Source of the DNA: Bacilli bacterium
GTDB taxonomy: Bacteria > Bacillota_I > Bacilli_A > RF39 > UBA660
Reading direction: 5' to 3'
Length of the DNA stretch: 53,797 bases
Assembly: GCA_017409025.1 (NCBI GenBank)
Contig: JAFQTN010000013.1
Location: 1-53,797 of the forward strand
In this document: positions 26,488 through 51,783 of the stretch, piece by piece
Layout of the letters: every line of letters begins with the position of its first letter
Numbering within the stretch: the first letter of the stretch is position 1
Notes under the pieces: model-generated
Told to the model about the DNA's origin: nothing
The model's input: the letters and a program-made list of their open reading frames with translations, nothing else
Database searches by the model: none
Position numbers and translations under genes: made by a program

Positions 26488-27957
26488 ATGGAAAAAATTG
26501 ATGTTATTAAAAATATTGCTAAGAGAACTGGTGGAGATATTTATTTGGGTGTAGTAGGGGCTGTTAGAACGGGTAAATCAACATTCATAAGAAGATTTAT
26601 GGAAAATATGGTTATACCTAATATTCCCGATGAATTCGATAAAAAAAGGGCTTTAGATGAATTGCCTCAGGCTGCTAATGGTAAAATGATTATGACTACA
26701 GAACCAAAGTTTGTTCCTGCTAGTGCAGCAAAAATTGCTATTGATGAATTTACTGCTAATATTAAGATGATTGATTGTGTTGGTTATGTTATTAAAGATG
26801 CAAAAGGGGTAGAAGATGAAAATGGTCCTAGATATGTAATGACTCCTTGGTATAGTGAACCAATTCCTTTTGTGGAGGCTGCTGAAATTGGCACAGAGAA
26901 GGTTATTAAAGACCATTCTACGATCGGAATTGTGGTTACTACTGATGGTTCTTTTGGAGAATTTTCTAGAGGAGATTATTTAGAAGCTGAAGAGACTGTT
27001 ATAAATGAATTACAAGAAATAGGTAAACCATATATCGTTCTTTTAAATACTGTTAATCCTAGTAGTGATAGTACTATTATTTTGGCTAATGAAATGAAAG
27101 AAAAATATAATGTACCAGTTTTACCTATTAACGTTGAACAAATGCAAGAAAGGGATATGTATAACATCTTAAAAGAAGCTTTGTATGAATTTCCAATTGT
27201 TGAAGTTAAAGTAAATATTCCTGATTGGATTTCAATATTAAATCCGAGTCATTATTTAAAAAAGTCTTATATTGATAAAATTAAAGAGAGCGTATTATCT
27301 ATAGATAAGATTAGAGATATCGATACTATAACTAATTATTTCAATGACTCAGAATATATTGAAAAATCATATTTATCTGAAGTAGATCCTTCAACTGGAG
27401 AAGCTACGATTAATCTTTCTGCTCCAGGAGAATTATATAACCAAGTATTGAAAGAGATAATAGACGTAGATATTTCTTCAAAGGCAGGAATGCTTAAATT
27501 GTTCCAGGATTTCCAAGAAGCAAAATATGAGTATGATCAAATTAAAACAGCACTTAAGACTGTTAAACAAACTGGGTATGGTATTGCATCACCGACTTTG
27601 TCTGATATGAAATTAGAGACACCAGAGATAATTAAGCAAGGCGGTAGATATGGAGTTAAGCTTAAAGCTAAAGCACCTTCTATTCATATGATAAAAGTTG
27701 ATGTAGAATCTACTTTCGAACCAATTATTGGTAGTGAACTTCAAAGTAAAGAATTAATAAAAGGTTTAACTGAAAATGAAAACAATACCGATATATGGAA
27801 AAGTGAAATTTTTGGAAGAAGTTTGGATGTGATTGTTCAAGAAGGAATTCAGGCAAAACTTGCTATGATGCCAGAATCTGTTAGATATAAATTATGTCAG
27901 ACTCTAACTAAGATTATTAACAAGGGAAGTTCTACGATGATTGCTATTGTTTTATAA
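26488..27957 (+). CDS. spoIVA: Stage IV sporulation protein A (coat-base ATPase)
   Basis: An ATPase that polymerises on the forespore surface and forms the base of the spore coat. At 489 residues it matches the 492-residue Bacillus protein. The P-loop GAVRTGKST (residues 24-32) is intact, with the conserved stretches TTEPKFVPASAA, DCVGYVIKDAKGVEDENGPRYV-like (split here) and TPWYSEPIPF. The C-terminus (INKGSSTMIAIVL) is the family's forespore-targeting end. It lies just upstream of hup, as in Bacillus. It is among the best markers that this lineage forms or formed spores. Confidence 0.97.
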   Translation: MEKIDVIKNIAKRTGGDIYLGVVGAVRTGKSTFIRRFMENMVIPNIPDEFDKKRALDELPQAANGKMIMTTEPKFVPASAAKIAIDEFTANIKMIDCVGYVIKDAKGVEDENGPRYVMTPWYSEPIPFVEAAEIGTEKVIKDHSTIGIVVTTDGSFGEFSRGDYLEAEETVINELQEIGKPYIVLLNTVNPSSDSTIILANEMKEKYNVPVLPINVEQMQERDMYNILKEALYEFPIVEVKVNIPDWISILNPSHYLKKSYIDKIKESVLSIDKIRDIDTITNYFNDSEYIEKSYLSEVDPSTGEATINLSAPGELYNQVLKEIIDVDISSKAGMLKLFQDFQEAKYEYDQIKTALKTVKQTGYGIASPTLSDMKLETPEIIKQGGRYGVKLKAKAPSIHMIKVDVESTFEPIIGSELQSKELIKGLTENENNTDIWKSEIFGRSLDVIVQEGIQAKLAMMPESVRYKLCQTLTKIINKGSSTMIAIVL

Positions 27958-33674: not shown

Positions 33675-33700
33675 TAAAAAAACAAGATTTTTCTTGTTTT
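33675..33700 (-). terminator. Terminator of the DUF2229-type pair
   Basis: AAAACAAGA/TCTTGTTTT with T-run on the - strand; overlaps the stop codon. Confidence 0.8.
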
Positions 33701-34766
33701 AATTAGACTTTTTCTTAGATTTTATCATATCTTTAAAAGCTTCAATTTTAGTATCTATATTAGAAATATTATTCTCTCCATCAAAACTTAGATATAAAAT
33801 TGGCACTTCATAATCTTCACTTATTTTTGCTAGAGTGGGCATGGCATTTATTTCTGGTACACAGCTAAAACTTTTGATATGAATTATACCATCTATTCCT
33901 TTTTTTGCGTGTTCTATAGAGTGAACTACTGATTCTGTTCCGTCTGCACCGAGAGGGTATTTTAAATATTTTCTTCCTTTAAATAAGAGAATACTTCTCA
34001 TAAATCTTTTTATTATTAATAAGTAAGTTAGGTTAGTATATCTATATACTTTAATGCCTTCTTTTATGAGATTTTTTTCTAAGTTATTACTTGCTTCCAT
34101 ATCCATTAATGAATATAATTCTCCGATTAGTAATATTTCTAGTGTTTTTTCTTCTTTTAAATTAATTTGTTTAAATGCTTTTTTATATTTAATATATCTT
34201 TTTATTATTTTAATAATTGATAAATTTCCTTTAGTAAGATTATTTTTATATTGTTTTTCTAACTGTTCAAATGATCCTGGAATTTTCTCGGAAGCCATAT
34301 TTTCTCTAATATACTTGTCTATTTTATCCATTGTTATAATTAAGATTATACCTTGTAATAGGTAATATAGATACTTAAAGATGTTTAATTTAGGATTTAG
34401 TTTTTTTGCTTCTTTATATAGTTTTTTTATAGATACATGGTTATCCTGGATTAAGTTTATAAAAGTGAATTTGTATCCTAGATCTTTTAGAATTTGTTCT
34501 TGTAATTCTGCATAATAGCCATATCTACATCCACCACCTGCTTGAATTAATATATCTGCACCTGATTCTAAAGCATTTATATAATTACCTAAATTATATT
34601 TAAATGGCATACATATATCATCTGGACTATATTTTGAACCCAATTCAATTGTTTGTTTATTGTTTTTAGGAGGTATTATAATATTACAATTAGTTATTTT
34701 CTCGACTATATATTTAATTGGGATATAATAGTCTCCAAGATGAGGAAATGAAATTTTTTTATTCAT
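33699..34766 (-). CDS. Acyl-CoA dehydratase activase-related protein, C-terminal-half type
   Basis: A 355-residue protein resembling the latter part of large CoA-protein activase (DUF2229/HgdC-related) proteins in Clostridia. It has SPDDICMPFKYNLGNYI (Cys52), ILIQAGGGCRYGYYAELQEQ (Cys80), GADGTESVVHSIEHAKKGID and a late Cys (FSCVPEINAMPTL). These Cys could hold an Fe-S cluster as in 2-hydroxyacyl-CoA dehydratase relatives. It overlaps its partner gene by 8 bp. The ATPase domain (BcrAD/BadFG) that normally accompanies these sequences is absent, so the substrate and role are open. Confidence 0.72.
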   Translation of the reverse strand: MNKKISFPHLGDYYIPIKYIVEKITNCNIIIPPKNNKQTIELGSKYSPDDICMPFKYNLGNYINALESGADILIQAGGGCRYGYYAELQEQILKDLGYKFTFINLIQDNHVSIKKLYKEAKKLNPKLNIFKYLYYLLQGIILIITMDKIDKYIRENMASEKIPGSFEQLEKQYKNNLTKGNLSIIKIIKRYIKYKKAFKQINLKEEKTLEILLIGELYSLMDMEASNNLEKNLIKEGIKVYRYTNLTYLLIIKRFMRSILLFKGRKYLKYPLGADGTESVVHSIEHAKKGIDGIIHIKSFSCVPEINAMPTLAKISEDYEVPILYLSFDGENNISNIDTKIEAFKDMIKSKKKSN

Positions 34767-35676
34767 TAGTACCTCCTTGATTTAAAATGTCGACAAAACT
34801 TTCTAATTTTGTTTCTAGACTTAATTCGGTTATGTTTTCATCTATTAATAAATTAAGGGTAGGGATATCTTTGTTCTTTAGAATAGCTAAGTTATTAACT
34901 AGACTATCAATTCCGCAAGGGTAGGTAGATATAAAGATTATTCCATCTATCATGTTTTTTGTATAGTATAGACCCCCTATCATTTCTTTAGAATATTTCC
35001 AATATAAGGTGTTTGAAAAATATTGAGAAAATTCATTAGTAATTTTTTTATCTAATTTATTTGAATAAATGGGAATGATGTTATTTTTTTCTAGATAGTT
35101 AGTAATATATTTCGAAATAAATTTATCTTGAATATTATAGAAGTGAGATAGAATTAGAATCTTTTTATTTGTTTTTGATAGTTTATTTTTTTCGCTATTA
35201 GCTTGATTAATATCATATTTTTTTTGTTTAATTTTAGCTTTATGATAACTATATAAAATTTTAATAATATTCTTTGTAAATTTTAATCCCATTTTAATAA
35301 ATCCTAGGATAGGAAATTTTAATTTGGTATATTCAATATTATAATCTAGTATTTGTTCTGATGGAATTTTATGTTTAATATCATCATATGTTCCATTTAG
35401 TCTTGTACATACTTTATCTTTCTTACCATAGTCACATGCTCTTGATATTAGAATATAATCACATTTTTCAGACAAGTATAAGACATGTCCTACATATATT
35501 TTATAAGATAAACAGCATTCATCTATAGTATTATTTACTCCGAGTTCTATTATTTCTCTATTGGTTTCTGGACTTAGTACTACGTTACAACCTAATGATT
35601 CAAAGAAATTTTTCCATAATACGTTATATCTATAATATAGTAATGCTCTAGGTATTCCTACTTTTATCTTTTTCAT
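34759..35676 (-). CDS. Acyl-CoA dehydratase activase-related protein, N-terminal-half type (DUF2229)
   Basis: A 305-residue protein that opens KIKVGIPRALLYYRYNVLWK, a DUF2229 hallmark. Conserved Cys lie in NTIDECCLSYKIYVGHV (54, 55) and ISRACDYGKKDKVCTRL (81, 90), with TYPCGIDSL near the C-terminus. With the following gene it looks like the two halves of one large clostridial protein encoded separately. An oxygen-sensitive Fe-S protein is likely by family. Starts with ATG behind AGGTGA. Confidence 0.72.
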   Translation of the reverse strand: MKKIKVGIPRALLYYRYNVLWKNFFESLGCNVVLSPETNREIIELGVNNTIDECCLSYKIYVGHVLYLSEKCDYILISRACDYGKKDKVCTRLNGTYDDIKHKIPSEQILDYNIEYTKLKFPILGFIKMGLKFTKNIIKILYSYHKAKIKQKKYDINQANSEKNKLSKTNKKILILSHFYNIQDKFISKYITNYLEKNNIIPIYSNKLDKKITNEFSQYFSNTLYWKYSKEMIGGLYYTKNMIDGIIFISTYPCGIDSLVNNLAILKNKDIPTLNLLIDENITELSLETKLESFVDILNQGGTNE

Positions 35677-40333: not shown

Positions 40334-41668
40334 TTAATTTTTTGGAAATTCAATAATTACACAATTATCTGTTTCACTACTATAAACTTTATAATTATAA
40401 CCATTAACATTTAATAAATCTTGTAACTTAGTTAGTTTATCTTCTACTATTGGTGTTGGTAATACTGGTTCAGTTACTGGTATTTCAAATGATGGTACTG
40501 CGCTAGGTTGTGGCACTTCTAATGTAGGTTCAACTAAGGGCATTACTACTTCTGGTTCTTGAGCCATTAGATCTACTGGATTTGGCATTGTTACATTTGG
40601 ATTAAACAAAGGTGCATCTAATGATGGAGTAGGCATTTGAGGCTCTACAGGAGCTTGTGGCACTACTAATTCTGGTCCAAATACTGGAGCATCATTTATT
40701 ATAGGCGCTGGCATTTCAGGAACAATTGGTGTTGCATCCATTGTTGGTGCCATTACTGGTACTTCAGAAACTGAAGGGAGTGGTTGTGGTCCAAATACTG
40801 GAGCTTGTGGTGCTACCAATTGAGGTTCAGCTACTGGTGCAGTAGGTATCGAAGGCATTACTACTTCTGGTTCTGGGACAATTGGTGCTTGATTCATACT
40901 TTGCATATTCATCATATTTAATGATGTATTATTATTTGCTGCATTATTATTATCATAGTTTGGAAAGAAATTTCCATTATTCATATTTTCATCATCCTTT
41001 TCTTCTTCTTTAATATTTAGTGATTTCATAATATCACTTATTGCTTGTTTTATTTCTTCTTCTTGGGTTTCTTTTTTATTTATAATTTGATCTGTTTCTT
41101 TAACCGTTAACTTTTCAGTTATTATTCTATTTAATAATTCTAGTTGTTTATCTTTATCTTCGATATTAATTAAGCTTCTTGCGTGTCTTTCACTTATTTT
41201 TTTATGGGCTAGAGCATCTTGAACTTCCTCAGGTAATGAAAGTAGTCTTATTTTATTAGCAATAGATGATTGAGATTTTCCTAATTTTTCTGCTAAACTT
41301 GCTTGGGTTTGATTTCCTATTCTCATAATCTCTTCATATGATTTTGCTTCTTCGATCGGAGATAGTCCTTGACGCTCTAAATTTTCTATTAACGCTAATT
41401 CAGCCATTTGCTGTTCATCCGCTGTTTTAATTATTACAGGCACTTCAGTTAAACCAATTTGCGTTGCTGCTCTGAATCGTCTTTCTCCAGCAATTATTTC
41501 ATATTTATCATCTTTAATTCTCACCAAAATTGGATTTATAATTCCATATTTTTTAATAGAATCTGCTAAACTTTTAAGTGATTGTTCATCAAAAACTTTT
41601 CTAGGTTGATATTTATTTGGAATTATTAAACTAGTATTTAATTTTACCACACTAGTCTCTTGTTGCAA
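40334..41668 (-). CDS. noc: Nucleoid occlusion protein Noc (ParB family) with Pro-rich linker and no N-terminal membrane segment
   Basis: A CTP-dependent DNA clamp of the ParB/Noc family. The nucleotide-binding core has QPRKVFDE, GERRFRAA (61-68) and IENLERQGLSPIEEA. The helix-turn-helix has QTQASLAEKLGKSQSSIANK (120-139), then ISERHARSLI and KDKQLELLNRIITEKLTVKE, closer to Noc than to Spo0J. A matching Noc-binding palindrome exists at 50057. The protein has 444 residues, against about 280 in Bacillus. Residues about 260-408 are a Pro/Val/Glu-rich linker with repeats (QAPVFGPQ, DAPVFGPE, EPEVVMP twice), before the C-terminal dimerisation segment (410-444). The TTG start at 41668 follows GGAGGTGG and an in-frame stop lies shortly upstream, leaving no room for the membrane-targeting helix. 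Confidence 0.88.
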   Translation of the reverse strand: MQQETSVVKLNTSLIIPNKYQPRKVFDEQSLKSLADSIKKYGIINPILVRIKDDKYEIIAGERRFRAATQIGLTEVPVIIKTADEQQMAELALIENLERQGLSPIEEAKSYEEIMRIGNQTQASLAEKLGKSQSSIANKIRLLSLPEEVQDALAHKKISERHARSLINIEDKDKQLELLNRIITEKLTVKETDQIINKKETQEEEIKQAISDIMKSLNIKEEEKDDENMNNGNFFPNYDNNNAANNNTSLNMMNMQSMNQAPIVPEPEVVMPSIPTAPVAEPQLVAPQAPVFGPQPLPSVSEVPVMAPTMDATPIVPEMPAPIINDAPVFGPELVVPQAPVEPQMPTPSLDAPLFNPNVTMPNPVDLMAQEPEVVMPLVEPTLEVPQPSAVPSFEIPVTEPVLPTPIVEDKLTKLQDLLNVNGYNYKVYSSETDNCVIIEFPKN

Positions 41669-41757
41669 CTTACCACCTCCAATTCATTCTCTCTTACCCT
41701 ATATTAATATAATACACTATTATTTTTTTTTTTTCAATCATTTTATTTATTTAGTGA

Positions 41758-41771: not shown

Positions 41772-42059
41772 ATGAGTGATTTTATGATTATTAATAATAA
41801 AGAATTATCTTTAAACGATGCGATTAACTTTTCTAATCAAGAAGAGTTATTACTTAAAAGAAGAGATAATAATTTGCTTTTAAGTGATTATCAAATATCT
41901 GTATTATCAAAGAATAATATTGATTATAAGAAATTTAGTAATGTAAGAGAATTAGTTTTTGAAATTGAAAACTCTTTAGATGATTATTATGATCCAGAAC
42001 TAGATTTAGTTAGTTCACAGTTAGCCGAATATATATATTATAATGAGACAAAAAAATAA
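41772..42059 (+). CDS. Unknown 95-aa protein between noc and rsmG
   Basis: A small acidic protein that I do not recognise (INNKELSLNDAINFSNQEEL, YQISVLSKNNIDYKKFSNVR, then a negatively charged tail). It has no membrane segment and no Cys. It is read against its neighbours noc and rsmG and has its own TATAAT and a strong terminator, which supports it as a real gene. The start is uncertain: ATG 41772 is near the predicted transcription start (leaderless), while ATG 41784 has GGATGAG ahead. From its Ser/Leu/Asp-rich helical pattern nothing further can be said. Confidence 0.65.
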   Translation: MSDFMIINNKELSLNDAINFSNQEELLLKRRDNNLLLSDYQISVLSKNNIDYKKFSNVRELVFEIENSLDDYYDPELDLVSSQLAEYIYYNETKK

Positions 42060-42094: not shown

Positions 42095-42796
42095 TTATAT
42101 ATCTTTTTTCTTTATTTGTGAATACATTCTAGGATATATTAATGGTGTTTTATTTTGTTTAGTTACTTTATATAGTGTTCTTAAACTTAATTCTTTTGGT
42201 AATTCATATTTGATTATTTGTTCATTTGATAGATATAATTTATTGTAATAATTATTAATATTTTTTAATTCTTCATCAATGTTTGATTTTAATGATATAA
42301 AATTACCATTAACTTTTAGTAGAGGGATAGAGTATTCTAAAAGATGTTTTAATGGAGCTACTGCTCTTGATGTTACGATATCATAGATTTCACGATTGTC
42401 TTTAGCATATTCTTCAGCTCTAGCATTTATTACATTGATATTTTTTAATTCTAATTTATCTATTACTTTTTGTAAGAATAAACATTTTTTATTAGTAGAA
42501 TCTAATAAATCTATTTTTAAATTAGGAAATACTATTTTTAATACTAAACCAGGAAAGCCTGCTCCTGTACCAATATCTAGTAAGTACTGATCTTCTAGAT
42601 TAATTATTCTTACTATTGATAATGAATCGTAAAAATGTTTTAGATATACAAGATTTTTTTCCGTTATGGCAGTTAAGTTATACTTTTCGTTTTCTTCAAC
42701 TAGAATTTCATAATATTCATCTAATTTAGATAGAGTTTTATCATTGATATTGATATTTATTTTTTTTAATTCTTTTAAAAATTCTTCTTTATTCAT
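42095..42796 (-). CDS. rsmG: 16S rRNA 7-methylguanosine-527 methyltransferase
   Basis: Methylates G527 of 16S rRNA using SAM. The 233-residue Rossmann-fold protein has LLDIGTGAGFPGLVLKIVFP (SAM loop) and DIVTSRAVAPLKHLLEYSIP. N-terminal NINDKTLSKLDEYYEILVEE and YNLTAITE match RsmG. It overlaps mnmG by 8 bp in the conserved mnmE-mnmG-rsmG order. Confidence 0.95.
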   Translation of the reverse strand: MNKEEFLKELKKINININDKTLSKLDEYYEILVEENEKYNLTAITEKNLVYLKHFYDSLSIVRIINLEDQYLLDIGTGAGFPGLVLKIVFPNLKIDLLDSTNKKCLFLQKVIDKLELKNINVINARAEEYAKDNREIYDIVTSRAVAPLKHLLEYSIPLLKVNGNFISLKSNIDEELKNINNYYNKLYLSNEQIIKYELPKELSLRTLYKVTKQNKTPLIYPRMYSQIKKKDI

Positions 42797-44660
42797 TATA
42801 TTTCTTCCTTAAATAAATCATTAATATAGATATATCAGATGGATTAACACCACTTATTCTTAAAGCTTGACCGATAGTAGTAGGGTTTACTTTTAGTAAT
42901 TTTTGTCTAGCTTCAGAAGCTAAGTTTGGTATTTTATTATAATCAATATCTTGTGGTATTTGTTTTTCTTCATATTTTAACATTTTTTCGGCTTCTTTAT
43001 TTATTTTATTTATATATCCAGCATATTTAATAGTTATTTCTGCTTGTTCATAAACTTCATCATCATAAGAATCTTCTAATAAAGTATTTTCTAACAATGT
43101 ATTTATAGTTATTTCTGTTCTTTTTAATAAATCATATAATGATATCGAATCTTTAATATTTGCGCTATTTAATTTAGTTAATAATTCATTATTTGATATA
43201 GTTGGCGTTAATTTTATTTCTTTTAGTAAATTTAATAATTCTTTAATATTTTCTTTCTTAGTTTTAAATTTATTATATCTATCTTCTTTTATTAAACCTA
43301 CTTTATATCCGTAATCTGTTAATCTTATATCAGCATTATCATGTCTTAAAATTAGTCTATATTCTGCACGTGATGTTAACATACGATATGGTTCAATAGT
43401 TCCTTTAGTTACTAAATCATCAATTAATACTCCAATATATGCTTCATTTCTTTTTAAAATTAATGGTTCTTTATTCTCTAAAGATAGTGAAGCATTAATA
43501 CCAGCAATTATTCCTTGTCCGGCGGCTTCTTCATATCCACTTGTACCATTAATCTGACCGGCAGTATATAAATTTTTGATTACTTTACTTTCTAATGATC
43601 TAGTGATTTGAGTAGGGTAGATTGCATCGTATTCGATAGCATAAGCATATTTATTAATTTTAGCATTTTCTAAGCCTGGTAGGCTATGAACCATTTTTTC
43701 TTGAACATCACGAGGCATACTTGTGGAAAAACCTTGTAAGTACATATCGTCATAGTAGATACTTTCGGGTTCTATGAATAGTTGATGTCTTTCTTTATCT
43801 TTAAATCTAACTATTTTATCTTCGATAGATGGGCAATATCTTGGTCCTACGCCTGTAATATCGTCTCTTCCTCCATACATTGCTGATTTATTTAAATTAT
43901 CAAGTATTATTTTATGAGTTTCAGGCGTTGTATATATAAGATGACATGGTACTTGTGCTGTAGTATCATATTCTGTATGTTCTTCAGTATTGAAGTTATA
44001 ACAAACTTTATCTCCTGGTTCTACTTGGGTTTTTGAAAAATCTATTGAATTTTTATCTATTCTTTGTGGAGTACCTGTTTTTAATCTTAGTATCTCAAAA
44101 CCATAACTTGCTAATTTATCACTTAAATGCATTGAGGGTTTTTCTCCACTTGGACCACTTCTAGTTCTTTCACTGCCTACTAGAATATCGGCTTTTAAAT
44201 AAGTACCAGTTGTTAAGATTACTTTTTTACTAGTAATTTTAGTATTGTCTTCAAGAATGATACCTAATACAGTATTATTTTCTACAATTAGATCTTCAAC
44301 CATACCTTCAAGTAGAGTTAAATTTTCTTGATTTTTTAGAGTTTTTAGCATTTCTTTTGGATAAGTAACTTTATCTACTTGGGCTCTTAATGATCTAACA
44401 GCTGGTCCTTTTGATGAATTTAACATCTTCATTTGAAGGGCTGTTTTGTCGGCAATACGTCCCATTGTTCCACCTAGGGCATCTATTTCACGAACGATTA
44501 TTCCTTTAGCAGATCCTCCGATTGATGGGTTACATGGCAATGTTGCAACATTATTTATATTAGATGTTACTAAAAGAGTATTTTTTCCCATTTTAGCAGA
44601 AGCTAATGCTGCTTCACATCCGGCATGCCCTGCTCCAACAACGATTATATCGTAATTCAT
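42789..44660 (-). CDS. mnmG: tRNA uridine-34 carboxymethylaminomethyl enzyme MnmG
   Basis: With MnmE it installs carboxymethylaminomethyl on U34 of tRNAs, using FAD and tetrahydrofolate. The 623-residue protein starts with the FAD Rossmann motif VVGAGHAGCEAALASAKMG. Further family blocks are CNPSIGGSAKG, MLNSSKGPAVRSLRAQ-type, CPSIEDKI and GTSGYEEAAGQG. The C-terminal helical domain binds MnmE. The ATG at 44660 follows AAGAAGTG; the GTG at 44669 lies in that site. Confidence 0.96.
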   Translation of the reverse strand: MNYDIIVVGAGHAGCEAALASAKMGKNTLLVTSNINNVATLPCNPSIGGSAKGIIVREIDALGGTMGRIADKTALQMKMLNSSKGPAVRSLRAQVDKVTYPKEMLKTLKNQENLTLLEGMVEDLIVENNTVLGIILEDNTKITSKKVILTTGTYLKADILVGSERTRSGPSGEKPSMHLSDKLASYGFEILRLKTGTPQRIDKNSIDFSKTQVEPGDKVCYNFNTEEHTEYDTTAQVPCHLIYTTPETHKIILDNLNKSAMYGGRDDITGVGPRYCPSIEDKIVRFKDKERHQLFIEPESIYYDDMYLQGFSTSMPRDVQEKMVHSLPGLENAKINKYAYAIEYDAIYPTQITRSLESKVIKNLYTAGQINGTSGYEEAAGQGIIAGINASLSLENKEPLILKRNEAYIGVLIDDLVTKGTIEPYRMLTSRAEYRLILRHDNADIRLTDYGYKVGLIKEDRYNKFKTKKENIKELLNLLKEIKLTPTISNNELLTKLNSANIKDSISLYDLLKRTEITINTLLENTLLEDSYDDEVYEQAEITIKYAGYINKINKEAEKMLKYEEKQIPQDIDYNKIPNLASEARQKLLKVNPTTIGQALRISGVNPSDISILMIYLRKKYNE

Positions 44661-44683
44661 ATTTATCACTTCTTTTTCTATTT

Positions 44684-46027
44684 TTATTTACCCAGACAAA
44701 ATCTAGAGAATATTTCATCTATTAATTCATCTGTATAAGTTTCTCCGATAATTTCTCCTAGAATATTCCAACATTCTTTTAAGTCTAATTCTATAATATC
44801 TACCCAAGTATTATTTTCTATATTAGCTAAACTTTCTTTTATTTTATATAATGCTTGTTTTAATAGGGAAATACTTCTTGCATTACTTAGATATGACATA
44901 TCATCAGTAGTTATTTTATCTAGATTAAATATTTCTGATATTCTAGTTTTTATATCTTCAATACCAGTATTATCCTTAATACTTATTTTTATAGCGTCTT
45001 CAACATAAAGATTTAATTTATTTTCTAAGTCTATTTTATTTATTACTATAATGTGATTTTTCTTTTTAATCATTGATAGTAATTCTAATTCTTCTTCAGT
45101 TATTCTTTCATTATTATTTAATATCATTATTATTAGATCAGATGAAGTTATAATATCATAACTTTTATTGACACCTATTTTTTCTACGATATTATCTGTT
45201 TCTCTGATACCAGCAGTATCTATTATGTTACATACAAAACCATTTATAATAATTTTACCTTCCACAATATCTCTAGTTGTTCCTTCAATATCAGTTACTA
45301 TTGCTTTTTCTTCTTCAAGAAGAGTATTTAGAAGACTACTTTTACCAACATTTGGTCTCCCTATAATTCCTATTTTGATTCCTTCATTTATTATTTTACC
45401 ATCTTCTGATTTTTTAATTATTTTTTCTAGTTCTTCTTTTATATTTAAAACTAATGGATAGATTTTTTCTGAAGTTACTACTTCAATATCTTCATATTCT
45501 GGATAGTCAATATTTACTTCAATATTACTGACAATATCTACCAGTTTTTTTCTTATTTTTTTGATATTATTAGAAGCTTCACCATTTAATTGATTAATGG
45601 ACATTTTACGAGAGATATCTGTTTTTGCTTCGATTAGATTCATAATACCATCAGCTTGGGTTAAGTCAATTCTTCCATTTAAGAAGGCTCTTTTAGTAAA
45701 TTCTCCAGGTTCCGCTAATCTTGCACCATTAGATAATACTAATTCTAAAACTTTATTAGTTGTATTAATTCCTCCGTGACAATTAATTTCAATTATATTT
45801 TCTTTAGTAAAAGTTTTAGGAGATAGCATAACACTTACTAATACTTCGTCTATTATTTCAGAATTATCTATAATATGACCATAATGAATAGTATGGCTTT
45901 TAGCATTAGATAAATCTTTATCAAAGATTTTATTTATTATTTCTAATGATTTATCTCCACTTATTCTTATAACTGAAATAGCTCCGACACCTAAGGCGGT
46001 AGAAATTGCTGCGATTGTATCTTCCAT
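44684..46027 (-). CDS. mnmE: tRNA modification GTPase MnmE
   Basis: Partner of MnmG for U34 modification. The 447-residue protein has an N-terminal folate-binding domain (IAAISTALGVGAISVIRISG), central helices, and an inserted G domain with GRPNVGKSSLLN, GTTRD, DTAGI and NKID. It ends with the catalytic Cys motif FCLGK (normally FCIGK). Start behind GGAGAG. It follows a terminator that separates it from jag. Confidence 0.96.
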   Translation of the reverse strand: MEDTIAAISTALGVGAISVIRISGDKSLEIINKIFDKDLSNAKSHTIHYGHIIDNSEIIDEVLVSVMLSPKTFTKENIIEINCHGGINTTNKVLELVLSNGARLAEPGEFTKRAFLNGRIDLTQADGIMNLIEAKTDISRKMSINQLNGEASNNIKKIRKKLVDIVSNIEVNIDYPEYEDIEVVTSEKIYPLVLNIKEELEKIIKKSEDGKIINEGIKIGIIGRPNVGKSSLLNTLLEEEKAIVTDIEGTTRDIVEGKIIINGFVCNIIDTAGIRETDNIVEKIGVNKSYDIITSSDLIIMILNNNERITEEELELLSMIKKKNHIIVINKIDLENKLNLYVEDAIKISIKDNTGIEDIKTRISEIFNLDKITTDDMSYLSNARSISLLKQALYKIKESLANIENNTWVDIIELDLKECWNILGEIIGETYTDELIDEIFSRFCLGK

Positions 46028-50025: not shown

Positions 50026-50058
50026 ATAGATACTTATTTATAATAGGTATCTTTTTTA
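50026..50058 (+). terminator. Terminator of the HerA-like gene
   Basis: AGATAC/GTATCT stem with 13-nt loop and TTTTTT; it ends right at the Noc site. Confidence 0.7.
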
Positions 50059-50072
50059 TTTCCCGGGAAATA
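50057..50072. promoter_or_regulatory. Noc-binding site (NBS)
   Basis: TATTTCCCGGGAAATA, a perfect 16-bp palindrome that equals the Bacillus Noc-binding consensus (A/T)TTTCCCGGGAAA(A/T). It is distinct from the ParB site parS (TGTTTCACGTGAAACA). It is a rare all-GC core in a 27 % GC region. It lies 340 bp before the dnaA start. Confidence 0.9.
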
Positions 50073-50383: not shown

Positions 50384-50412
50384 AAAACTAAGACTGAATG
50401 AGAGGTATCACT

Positions 50413-51783
50413 ATGAATAATAATGAACTTTGGCAAAAATTTTTGAATAATATTAAAGATGAAATTACCGATATATCTTTTAATATTTGGTTTAACGAAG
50501 ATGATACTAAACTTTATTCATTTAAAGACGATGTAGCAACAATTACTGTTAATCAAGATTTTATTAAAAAGCATTTAGAAGATAACTATATGGATATTAT
50601 GGCAGAGGCTATGTATAAGGTTACAAATTCTAATATTACTATTAATATTATTTTAGAAAAAGATGCTATTTTATTGGAAGAAGAAAAAAAGAAAGAATTA
50701 AAGAATAGTATTAAAGAGGATTATGTTAGCCAATCATCTGATCATGCTAATTTAAATCCTAATTATACTTTTGAATCATTTATTGTAGGTAATAGTAATA
50801 AGTTTGCTTATAAGGCTGCGAGAGTCGTAGCAGAATCTCCTGGTACTTATAATCCTTTGTTTTTATATGGAGAAAGTGGTGTTGGTAAAACTCATTTGAT
50901 GCATGCAATTGGTAATTATTTAATTCAAAATACTGATAAGAAGGTATTATATATTGCATCTGATAAGTTTGTAGATGAATATACAAGAATATTTAGGTAT
51001 AGTGAAAAAAATAATTATGATAAAATTGATACTTTTAAAGATAAATATAGGAATGTTGATGTTTTAATTATCGACGATATTCAGTTTTTAAGTACTGCTC
51101 CTAAGGGACAGGAAGAATTCTTTCATACTTTTAATGAACTACATAATGCTAATAAACAAATAATAATTGCTTCCGACAGAGCTGTTGATGATTTGAATTC
51201 TATAGAAAATAGATTATTAACGAGACTTAATTGGGGTCTTACTGCTAATATTACTACTCCTGATTATGATTTAAGAGTTAGTATTATTAAGAATAAGTTA
51301 GCTTTTAAAGAAGCTGCTGAAGATATTCCATCTGATGTTATTGAATATATAGCTAATAATTTTGATTCTGATATTAGAAAGTTAGAGGGAGCTATTACTA
51401 GAGTTTTAGCATATTCTTCTATGTTTAATAAAGGAAATATTACTTTAGATATTGCAGTTGATGCCTTAAAAGATCAGTTAAAAGATAGAAGTTTTTATAA
51501 GAATGATGTTCAAAGAATACAGAGAGTAGTATGTGATTACTATAAAATTAGTATAGAACAGATGAAAGGAAAGAATAGAAATAATGAAGTTAACTTTCCT
51601 AGACAGATTGCAATATATTTATGTAGAGAACTTACAACTGAATCCTTCCCTAAAATAGGATCTTATTTTGGAGGAAGAAATCATTCTACTATTATAAGTG
51701 CTTATCAAAGAATAGAAAAAGAATTAAATACTAATGAAAAATTAAAAGGAGTAATAAGGGATTTAAAAAAGAACTTGACATAA
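50413..51783 (+). CDS. dnaA: Chromosomal replication initiator DnaA
   Basis: Binds DnaA boxes and opens the origin. The 456-residue protein has domain I (LWQKFLNNIKDEITDISFNI), a short linker and AAA+ domain III with GESGVGKTHLMHAIG (Walker A), VLIIDDIQFL (Walker B) and arginine finger region ENRLLTRL. Domain IV ends with the DNA-reading motif GGRNHSTIISAYQRI. The ATG at 50413 follows GAGAGGT; the ATG at 50398 would overlap that site. dnaN follows across a box-bearing spacer. Confidence 0.98.
   Translation: MNNNELWQKFLNNIKDEITDISFNIWFNEDDTKLYSFKDDVATITVNQDFIKKHLEDNYMDIMAEAMYKVTNSNITINIILEKDAILLEEEKKKELKNSIKEDYVSQSSDHANLNPNYTFESFIVGNSNKFAYKAARVVAESPGTYNPLFLYGESGVGKTHLMHAIGNYLIQNTDKKVLYIASDKFVDEYTRIFRYSEKNNYDKIDTFKDKYRNVDVLIIDDIQFLSTAPKGQEEFFHTFNELHNANKQIIIASDRAVDDLNSIENRLLTRLNWGLTANITTPDYDLRVSIIKNKLAFKEAAEDIPSDVIEYIANNFDSDIRKLEGAITRVLAYSSMFNKGNITLDIAVDALKDQLKDRSFYKNDVQRIQRVVCDYYKISIEQMKGKNRNNEVNFPRQIAIYLCRELTTESFPKIGSYFGGRNHSTIISAYQRIEKELNTNEKLKGVIRDLKKNLT

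Follow-up and report, generated by a model that had tools for sequence, protein, structure and literature searches.

The noc-like gene and its neighbourhood

The DNA analysed here, referred to below as the window (the whole stretch, 53,797 nucleotides), carries close to dnaA and the origin a gene encoding a Noc-like protein of 444 amino acids, adjoining mnmE-mnmG-rsmG. The main features of this region are as follows.

40334..41668, minus strand: noc-like gene, 444 amino acids, TTG start (open reading frame and domain searches)
41021..41668, minus strand: ParB/Noc NTPase clamp domain and HTH DNA-binding domain, residues 1-216 (Pfam, fold, AlphaFold2, alignment)
40337..40438, minus strand: C-terminal dimerisation-type domain, helix-strand-strand, residues 411-444 (alignment and AlphaFold2)
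42095..46027, minus strand: rsmG-mnmG-mnmE, conserved upstream neighbours of noc, in the same order as in Bacillus (gene annotation)
50398..51783, plus strand: dnaA, marking the origin region (gene annotation)

A strong Shine-Dalgarno sequence, GGAGGTGG (41673-41680), lies directly 5′ of the TTG start, and an in-frame TGA (41684-41686) stands six codons 5′ of the same codon. An earlier sequence-only reading of this DNA had stated that the frame does not extend upstream of the TTG, and both elements bear this out; together with the comparable start in relatives, they exclude a wrong start or a sequence error. Pfam recognised ParB_N (residues 7-97) and HTH_ParB (residues 101-200) in the protein, and the top NCBIfam match was TIGR04285 (Noc), with 268.9 bits, under the 315-bit cut-off. 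The nearest solved structures in the fold search were Geobacillus and Bacillus Noc. AlphaFold2 predicted a confident core (residues 1-216), an unstructured stretch (residues 223-408, pLDDT around 50) and a confident helix-strand-strand C-terminal domain (residues 411-440). Structure prediction had been suggested as a check in the sequence-only reading, and its C-terminal dimer segment was recovered as a fold. The GERR and ENxxR motifs of the clamp core are invariant in the alignment (A1), and the fold resembles the Noc and ParB clamps.

Several other features of the region were recorded. A gene for a HerA-like ATPase (PF01935; 48263-50023) is inserted between rnpA and dnaA; two relatives (G006, L095; G043, L228) also have it just 5′ of dnaA, and the remaining genera that were examined lack it in this position. 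An ORF of 95 amino acids (41772-42059, plus strand) between noc and rsmG has no Pfam match. Of two adjoining ORFs at 33699-35676, the one at 33699-34766 weakly resembles 2-hydroxyglutaryl-CoA dehydratase/activase components and the other is similar by eye. The presence of SpoIVA (26488-27954) and of Spo0A (G000:C36:25896-26207) indicates that sporulation genes have been retained in this genome of 1.28 Mb; for uncultured orders of the class, a mixed ability to sporulate has been described (PMC10868615).

Specificity residues set the protein apart from the Spo0J of the host

The residues Q173, K179/K184 and R201 change the specificity of ParB from parS to the Noc binding site NBS, and one lysine is enough (Jalal et al., PMC7383237). 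In the noc-like protein, the positions 173, 179, 184 and 201 (Caulobacter numbering) are occupied by Q, K, S and R, as deduced from GKSQSSIANK...SERHAR, and most noc-like proteins of family f1, the taxonomic family of the host, have Q-K-x-R at these positions. The host's own Spo0J (locus L001), which adjoins ParA and carries the ParA motif LGRGL, has R, T, R and G. Since the specificity residues differ (Q/K/S/R versus R/T/R/G), each paralogue is expected to recognise its own kind of site, and both kinds, NBS and parS, were found in the host genome. The noc-like protein lacks all three of the LGxGL ParA-binding motif, a neighbouring parA and the parS-type residues. The existence of a separate Soj/Spo0J pair rules out that it is the sole ParB of the genome. 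By descent, DNA specificity and fold, the protein is a Noc-type CTP clamp, for which CTP binding and closure are predicted. Noc is considered to descend from a ParB duplicate that later turned into an inhibitor of division acting over the whole chromosome.

Loss of the N-terminal helix is a trait of the family

An N-terminal amphipathic helix targets Noc to the membrane (PMC4331003, PMC8429893). The noc-like gene was found in nearly every genome of the family, and we compared 125 intact proteins encoded at loci from this family (about 140 genera, uncultured gut-type bacteria). All 125 begin 18 to 26 residues ahead of a conserved QPR (TPR at the same distance in one case), and they are thus devoid of the N-terminal extension of about 27 residues present in Bacillus Noc. 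The absence of the amphipathic helix noted from the window therefore holds throughout, no intact relative (0/125) starting upstream with such a helix. The long linker between core and dimer domain is likewise common to 125/125 relatives, which answers the concern that it might be limited to a single assembly and excludes an assembly artefact. The total length of the family proteins ranges from 326 to 743 amino acids (n = 125), and Noc-like proteins from other families of the class have 260 to 282. These data show that the loss of the helix and the long linker are a family trait and not an assembly quirk. The MinC_C domain was found in none of 59 family genomes that were at least 90% complete, the control search being positive in 6 of 14 named genomes.

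Outside the family, one genome (G029) encodes a short Noc with a helix-like N-terminus, MGLFDFLG, and its NBS-like sites, 24 compared with 4 for the control, are scattered. A surplus of NBS-like sites was also observed in G036, though its Noc has no helix of the G029 kind, and in G031 and G034 the sites were not clearly above the control. In view of this mixed pattern, we claim no simple rule linking the helix to scattering.

Short conserved motifs in a disordered linker

The region between the core and the C-terminal domain comprises two features.

40439..41002, minus strand: disordered linker, Asn-rich then Pro/Val/Glu-rich, residues 223-410, with two APVFGP, two EPEVVMP and APLFNP (AlphaFold2, repeat and motif analysis)
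40958..40972, minus strand: NFFPN, residues 233-237, the form taken in this genus by the family-wide motif [NG][KR]FFN[FML][LF][ED][ED]E (linker motif analysis)

The Pro-rich repeat linker reported from the sequence stands, with a length of about 190 residues instead of 150 and disorder beginning at about 217-223. The repeats named in that reading are present, APVFGP at residues 289 and 327 and EPEVVMP at 266 and 371, and they exceed chance: three 6-mers and one 7-mer are repeated, versus means of 0.02 and 0.0005 in 2000 shuffles. APVFGP is one instance of the motif P[LV]F[NGSDT], and the comparison of repeats with close relatives that had been proposed gave 2 to 3 copies of this motif per linker in 5/5 genus members. 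Linker length across the family varies from 82 to 500 amino acids (median 201, n = 125), and the linkers are overall unalignable. Using composition-matched shuffles as the null, [x]FF[NPTSDE] occurred in 57 of the 125 linkers (shuffle mean 10.3, maximum 18), NPGF in 22 (0.3 in shuffles) and KFFN in 24 (0.2), counts that are inflated by kinship between species, though about 140 genera are included. The motifs NPGFxDxxKIxxxAxDI, ADxDxLL, YINYGEI, DYFxxPD, IPxxPI and [NG][KR]FFN[FML][LF][ED][ED]E were all far over shuffles, and the linkers of the window's genus keep MNNGNFFPN followed by LNxMNMQ as their version of the FF motif. The conserved short motifs make it plausible that the linker binds a partner, as the sequence-only reading had suggested. 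Several linkers carry FNIP/FDIP near the internal start described below, and mimicry of the FtsZ tail was rejected since the match to the end of the host's FtsZ, LDIPPFIRDRQDF, is too short; a beta-clamp-binding motif in APVF/PLF was likewise set aside, the match being poor.

The resemblance of the FF motif to the membrane helix of Bacillus makes relocation of the membrane segment a rival explanation to be taken seriously: [NG][KR]FFN[FML][LF][ED] in the linker would target the membrane, tether the DNA and block division around the origin only. The logo of the motif is sharp over 73 instances, and K/R precedes FF in 59 of them, resembling the B. subtilis N-terminus. In the B. subtilis helix F5, F8, F9 and R7 are important (PMC4331003). 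The absence of MinC would also call for a division inhibitor. However, FF is found in only about half of the linkers, the flank of the motif is acidic, and the version in the window, GNFFPNYD, has no basic residue, contains a proline and has a helical moment of 0.21 versus 0.5-0.6 for the best family versions. We consider this relocation unlikely. It nevertheless qualifies the proposal that membrane contact has been lost: the N-terminal helix is indeed gone, but a K/R-FF-N-hydrophobic motif resembling that helix is found in many linkers.

Predicted NBS are confined to the origin region, among parS

All the NBS and parS described here are sequence matches, that is, predicted binding sites; the exact NBS pattern was ATTTCCYRGGAAAT and the control was the reversed pattern. 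The window contains one site.

50057..50072, no strand assigned: perfect NBS, TATTTCCCGGGAAATA, between the HerA-like gene and dnaA, at the same place in G006 (L095:6893)

In addition to this perfect NBS near dnaA, the host genome has three NBS that carry 1-2 mismatches and lie where contig C1 ends, and the control pattern gave one match at ≤3 mismatches. The three C1 sites flank seven tandem copies of a parS variant, TGTTCCACGTGGAACA, between gyrA and tadA-dnaX. Contig C1 terminates in recF-gyrB-gyrA and the window in dnaA-dnaN; judged by the usual gene order, which is intact in relatives, these ends very probably adjoin each other, which would place all four host NBS within one origin region.

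In 14 well-assembled relatives, we found 28 exact NBS versus 0 for the control, all in the dnaA-gyrA-dnaX region and often alternating with parS. Twenty-seven of them are on the same contig as noc at ≤25 kb from it, and the last one (G133) is in dnaX next to gyrA. On a contig of 1.04 Mb (G109), 4/4 exact NBS are within 25 kb of noc. Across the family, 129 of 145 genomes have exact NBS, usually 1-4 each, and the control gave 0 in 144 genomes; the remaining 16 have no exact NBS. Two genomes (G055, L099; G137, L231) have noc and long parS arrays with no recognisable NBS there. The parS of G055 is altered (TGTTACACGTGTAACA, nine copies), and a search for an NBS variant matching it found none. In two genomes (G021, G154), exact NBS lie on contigs that have no assigned position relative to the origin. 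Scattered sites of the Bacillus type were not found in the host or the 14 relatives, nor at ≤3 mismatches in G019 and G109, where the counts were not over the control; weak sites of this type may nevertheless occur. NBS and parS are interleaved in G019, G043, G076 and G129. With 22 exact NBS, G043 is a numerical outlier: its NBS and parS alternate strictly in a tandem array that repeats about every 79 bp (L228:15760-16767), located just after gyrA and reaching the contig end, and the stretch that was read contains 13 of the 22 sites. In the open-access literature searched, interleaved arrays of NBS and parS were not found reported. This restriction of NBS to the origin/centromere supports the suggestion of the sequence-only reading that the clamp has a different job. 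Exact NBS were also observed 0.3-0.7 kb 5′ of noc in four genomes (G007:C37:11957, G162:C73:11281, G164:C36:29181, G009:C22:15942), a possible sign of autoregulation.

The perfect NBS that the window and G006 share in the gap just 5′ of dnaA would fit a regulator of replication initiation, Noc bound on the dnaA side limiting DnaA firing as in S. aureus, where Noc represses initiation and gives small ChIP peaks around dnaA (PMC5540599). However, a dnaA-adjacent NBS was seen only in the window's genus, and elsewhere, among the genera examined, most sites fall within the gyrA-dnaX-recR region at a distance of several kb from dnaA, which makes this explanation improbable.

A candidate internal start predicts a short product

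A candidate second start lies within the gene.

40982..40999, minus strand: candidate internal Shine-Dalgarno AAGGA (40995-40999) and ATG (40982-40984), M229, at the HTH-linker junction (start scan, codon conservation)
40334..40984, minus strand: predicted short product, linker and C-terminal domain, 216 amino acids (internal ATG)

An in-frame ATG preceded by a strong Shine-Dalgarno (duplex energy of −7 kcal/mol or better) is present at the HTH-linker junction in 29 of 125 family genes, of which 7 share one homologous position near the core end and may be less independent. Shuffling of codons gave an expectation of 2.6 (maximum 7), and permutation of synonymous codons with the protein fixed gave 11.2 (maximum 17 of 100). 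The regions beside the junction showed no surplus of internal starts. Among five species of the window's genus, the six codons ahead of the internal ATG have a synonymous identity of 48/48 (permutation p = 0.002) versus 58% in the core, and they include the rare AAG codon that forms AAGGA; when 139 six-codon windows were ranked by conservation, the top eight were all located ahead of this ATG. This indicates that the internal ribosome-binding site and the ATG are under selection at the nucleotide level. The window gene thus probably yields a second product of 216 amino acids comprising the linker and the dimer domain. The internal Shine-Dalgarno of the window is weak to modest (about −5.6 kcal/mol), and the yield of the short product may consequently be low. 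No internal start in noc or ParB was found reported in the open-access literature searched.

A proposed second clamp at the centromere

Taken together, the lost helix, the long motif-bearing arm and the presence of NBS only at the origin among parS suggest that the noc-like protein is probably part of the centromere. The explanation that we favour, with some reserve, is that it is a second ParB clamp loaded at the origin/centromere and acting as a multivalent adaptor, and not a chromosome-wide division inhibitor. We infer the loading and sliding of the clamp, the recruitment of a partner, the short form and its effect. The Noc-type clamp would load on the few NBS of the dnaA-gyrA-dnaX region, among the parS on which its paralogue Spo0J (ParB) is loaded; like other clamps of its kind, it would next bind CTP, close and slide along the neighbouring DNA. 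The long disordered arm joining the CTP/DNA core to the dimer domain would display many partner-binding peptides around the origin, and a partner recruited by these linker motifs could gather, tether or condense the origin. The short form, made of linker and dimer domain, would pair with full-length subunits, thereby tuning the number or valency of the clamps, and could limit clamp closure. As a more tentative extension, the whole family may possess a composite centromere with interleaved parS and NBS serving two CTP clamps, the Noc-derived one having a motif arm in place of the helix and two forms per gene. The noc-like protein may have a role in division, and with MinC missing from the family, origin-based positional cues may matter more. 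An ordinary Noc whose linker is low-complexity sequence produced by neutral drift, the genome being small and AT-rich, would fit the highly variable linker length (82-500 amino acids) and a composition typical of disordered tails, but is very doubtful given a long linker in 125/125 proteins, motifs far over shuffles in about 140 genera, NBS limited to the origin and a membrane helix missing in all.

Throughout this large lineage the helix is missing, and the predicted sites of the ParB duplicate belong to the centromere; the lineage therefore allows the clamp function to be told apart from that of the membrane helix. The alternating NBS-parS arrays are natural material on two sliding clamps sharing one loading array, and the family bears on the placement of the division site in small cells devoid of MinC.

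Comparison with known systems

In the open-access literature searched, the sole descriptions of Noc are those of a factor that binds the membrane and acts across the chromosome or, in S. aureus, of a regulator of replication; a survey of ParB-fold proteins from 2025 has Noc in its standard form only (PMC12704722). The noc-like protein shares with Bacillus/Geobacillus Noc (TIGR04285; PDB 7NFU, 7NG0, 7OL9) the clamp core (about 44-50% identity in the fold search), the NBS-specificity residues, the order mnmE-mnmG-rsmG-noc, the absence of the ParA-binding motif and the C-terminal helix-strand-strand. It differs from Bacillus Noc by the absence of the first 27 or so residues (N-terminal helices), by a linker of about 190 amino acids (82-500 in the family) and by the internal start; moreover, predicted NBS of the family are only at the origin/centromere, whereas B. 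subtilis has about 70 sites over most of the chromosome (PMC4331003). An in-frame internal start giving a second product with the C-terminus of the long one is known for Cas11b and the endolysin CTP1L (PMC11899642, PMC4777826), whereas the short product of noc is predicted only. Spo0J/ParB with parS (ParABS) has tandem origin-proximal loading sites at the same place and the same kind of CTP-clamp core, but the noc-like protein has other DNA specificity residues and a long linker, lacks LGxGL and does not adjoin parA in the host. The Noc of Staphylococcus aureus, which has a short linker, recognises an identical NBS core. Its effect on replication initiation and its peaks near dnaA (PMC5540599) are a further likeness, but its 41 sites are spread over the origin-proximal half, with a single one outside the interval from −700 to +700 kb (PMC5540599), whereas most of the genomes examined here have 1-4, within about 25 kb of noc.
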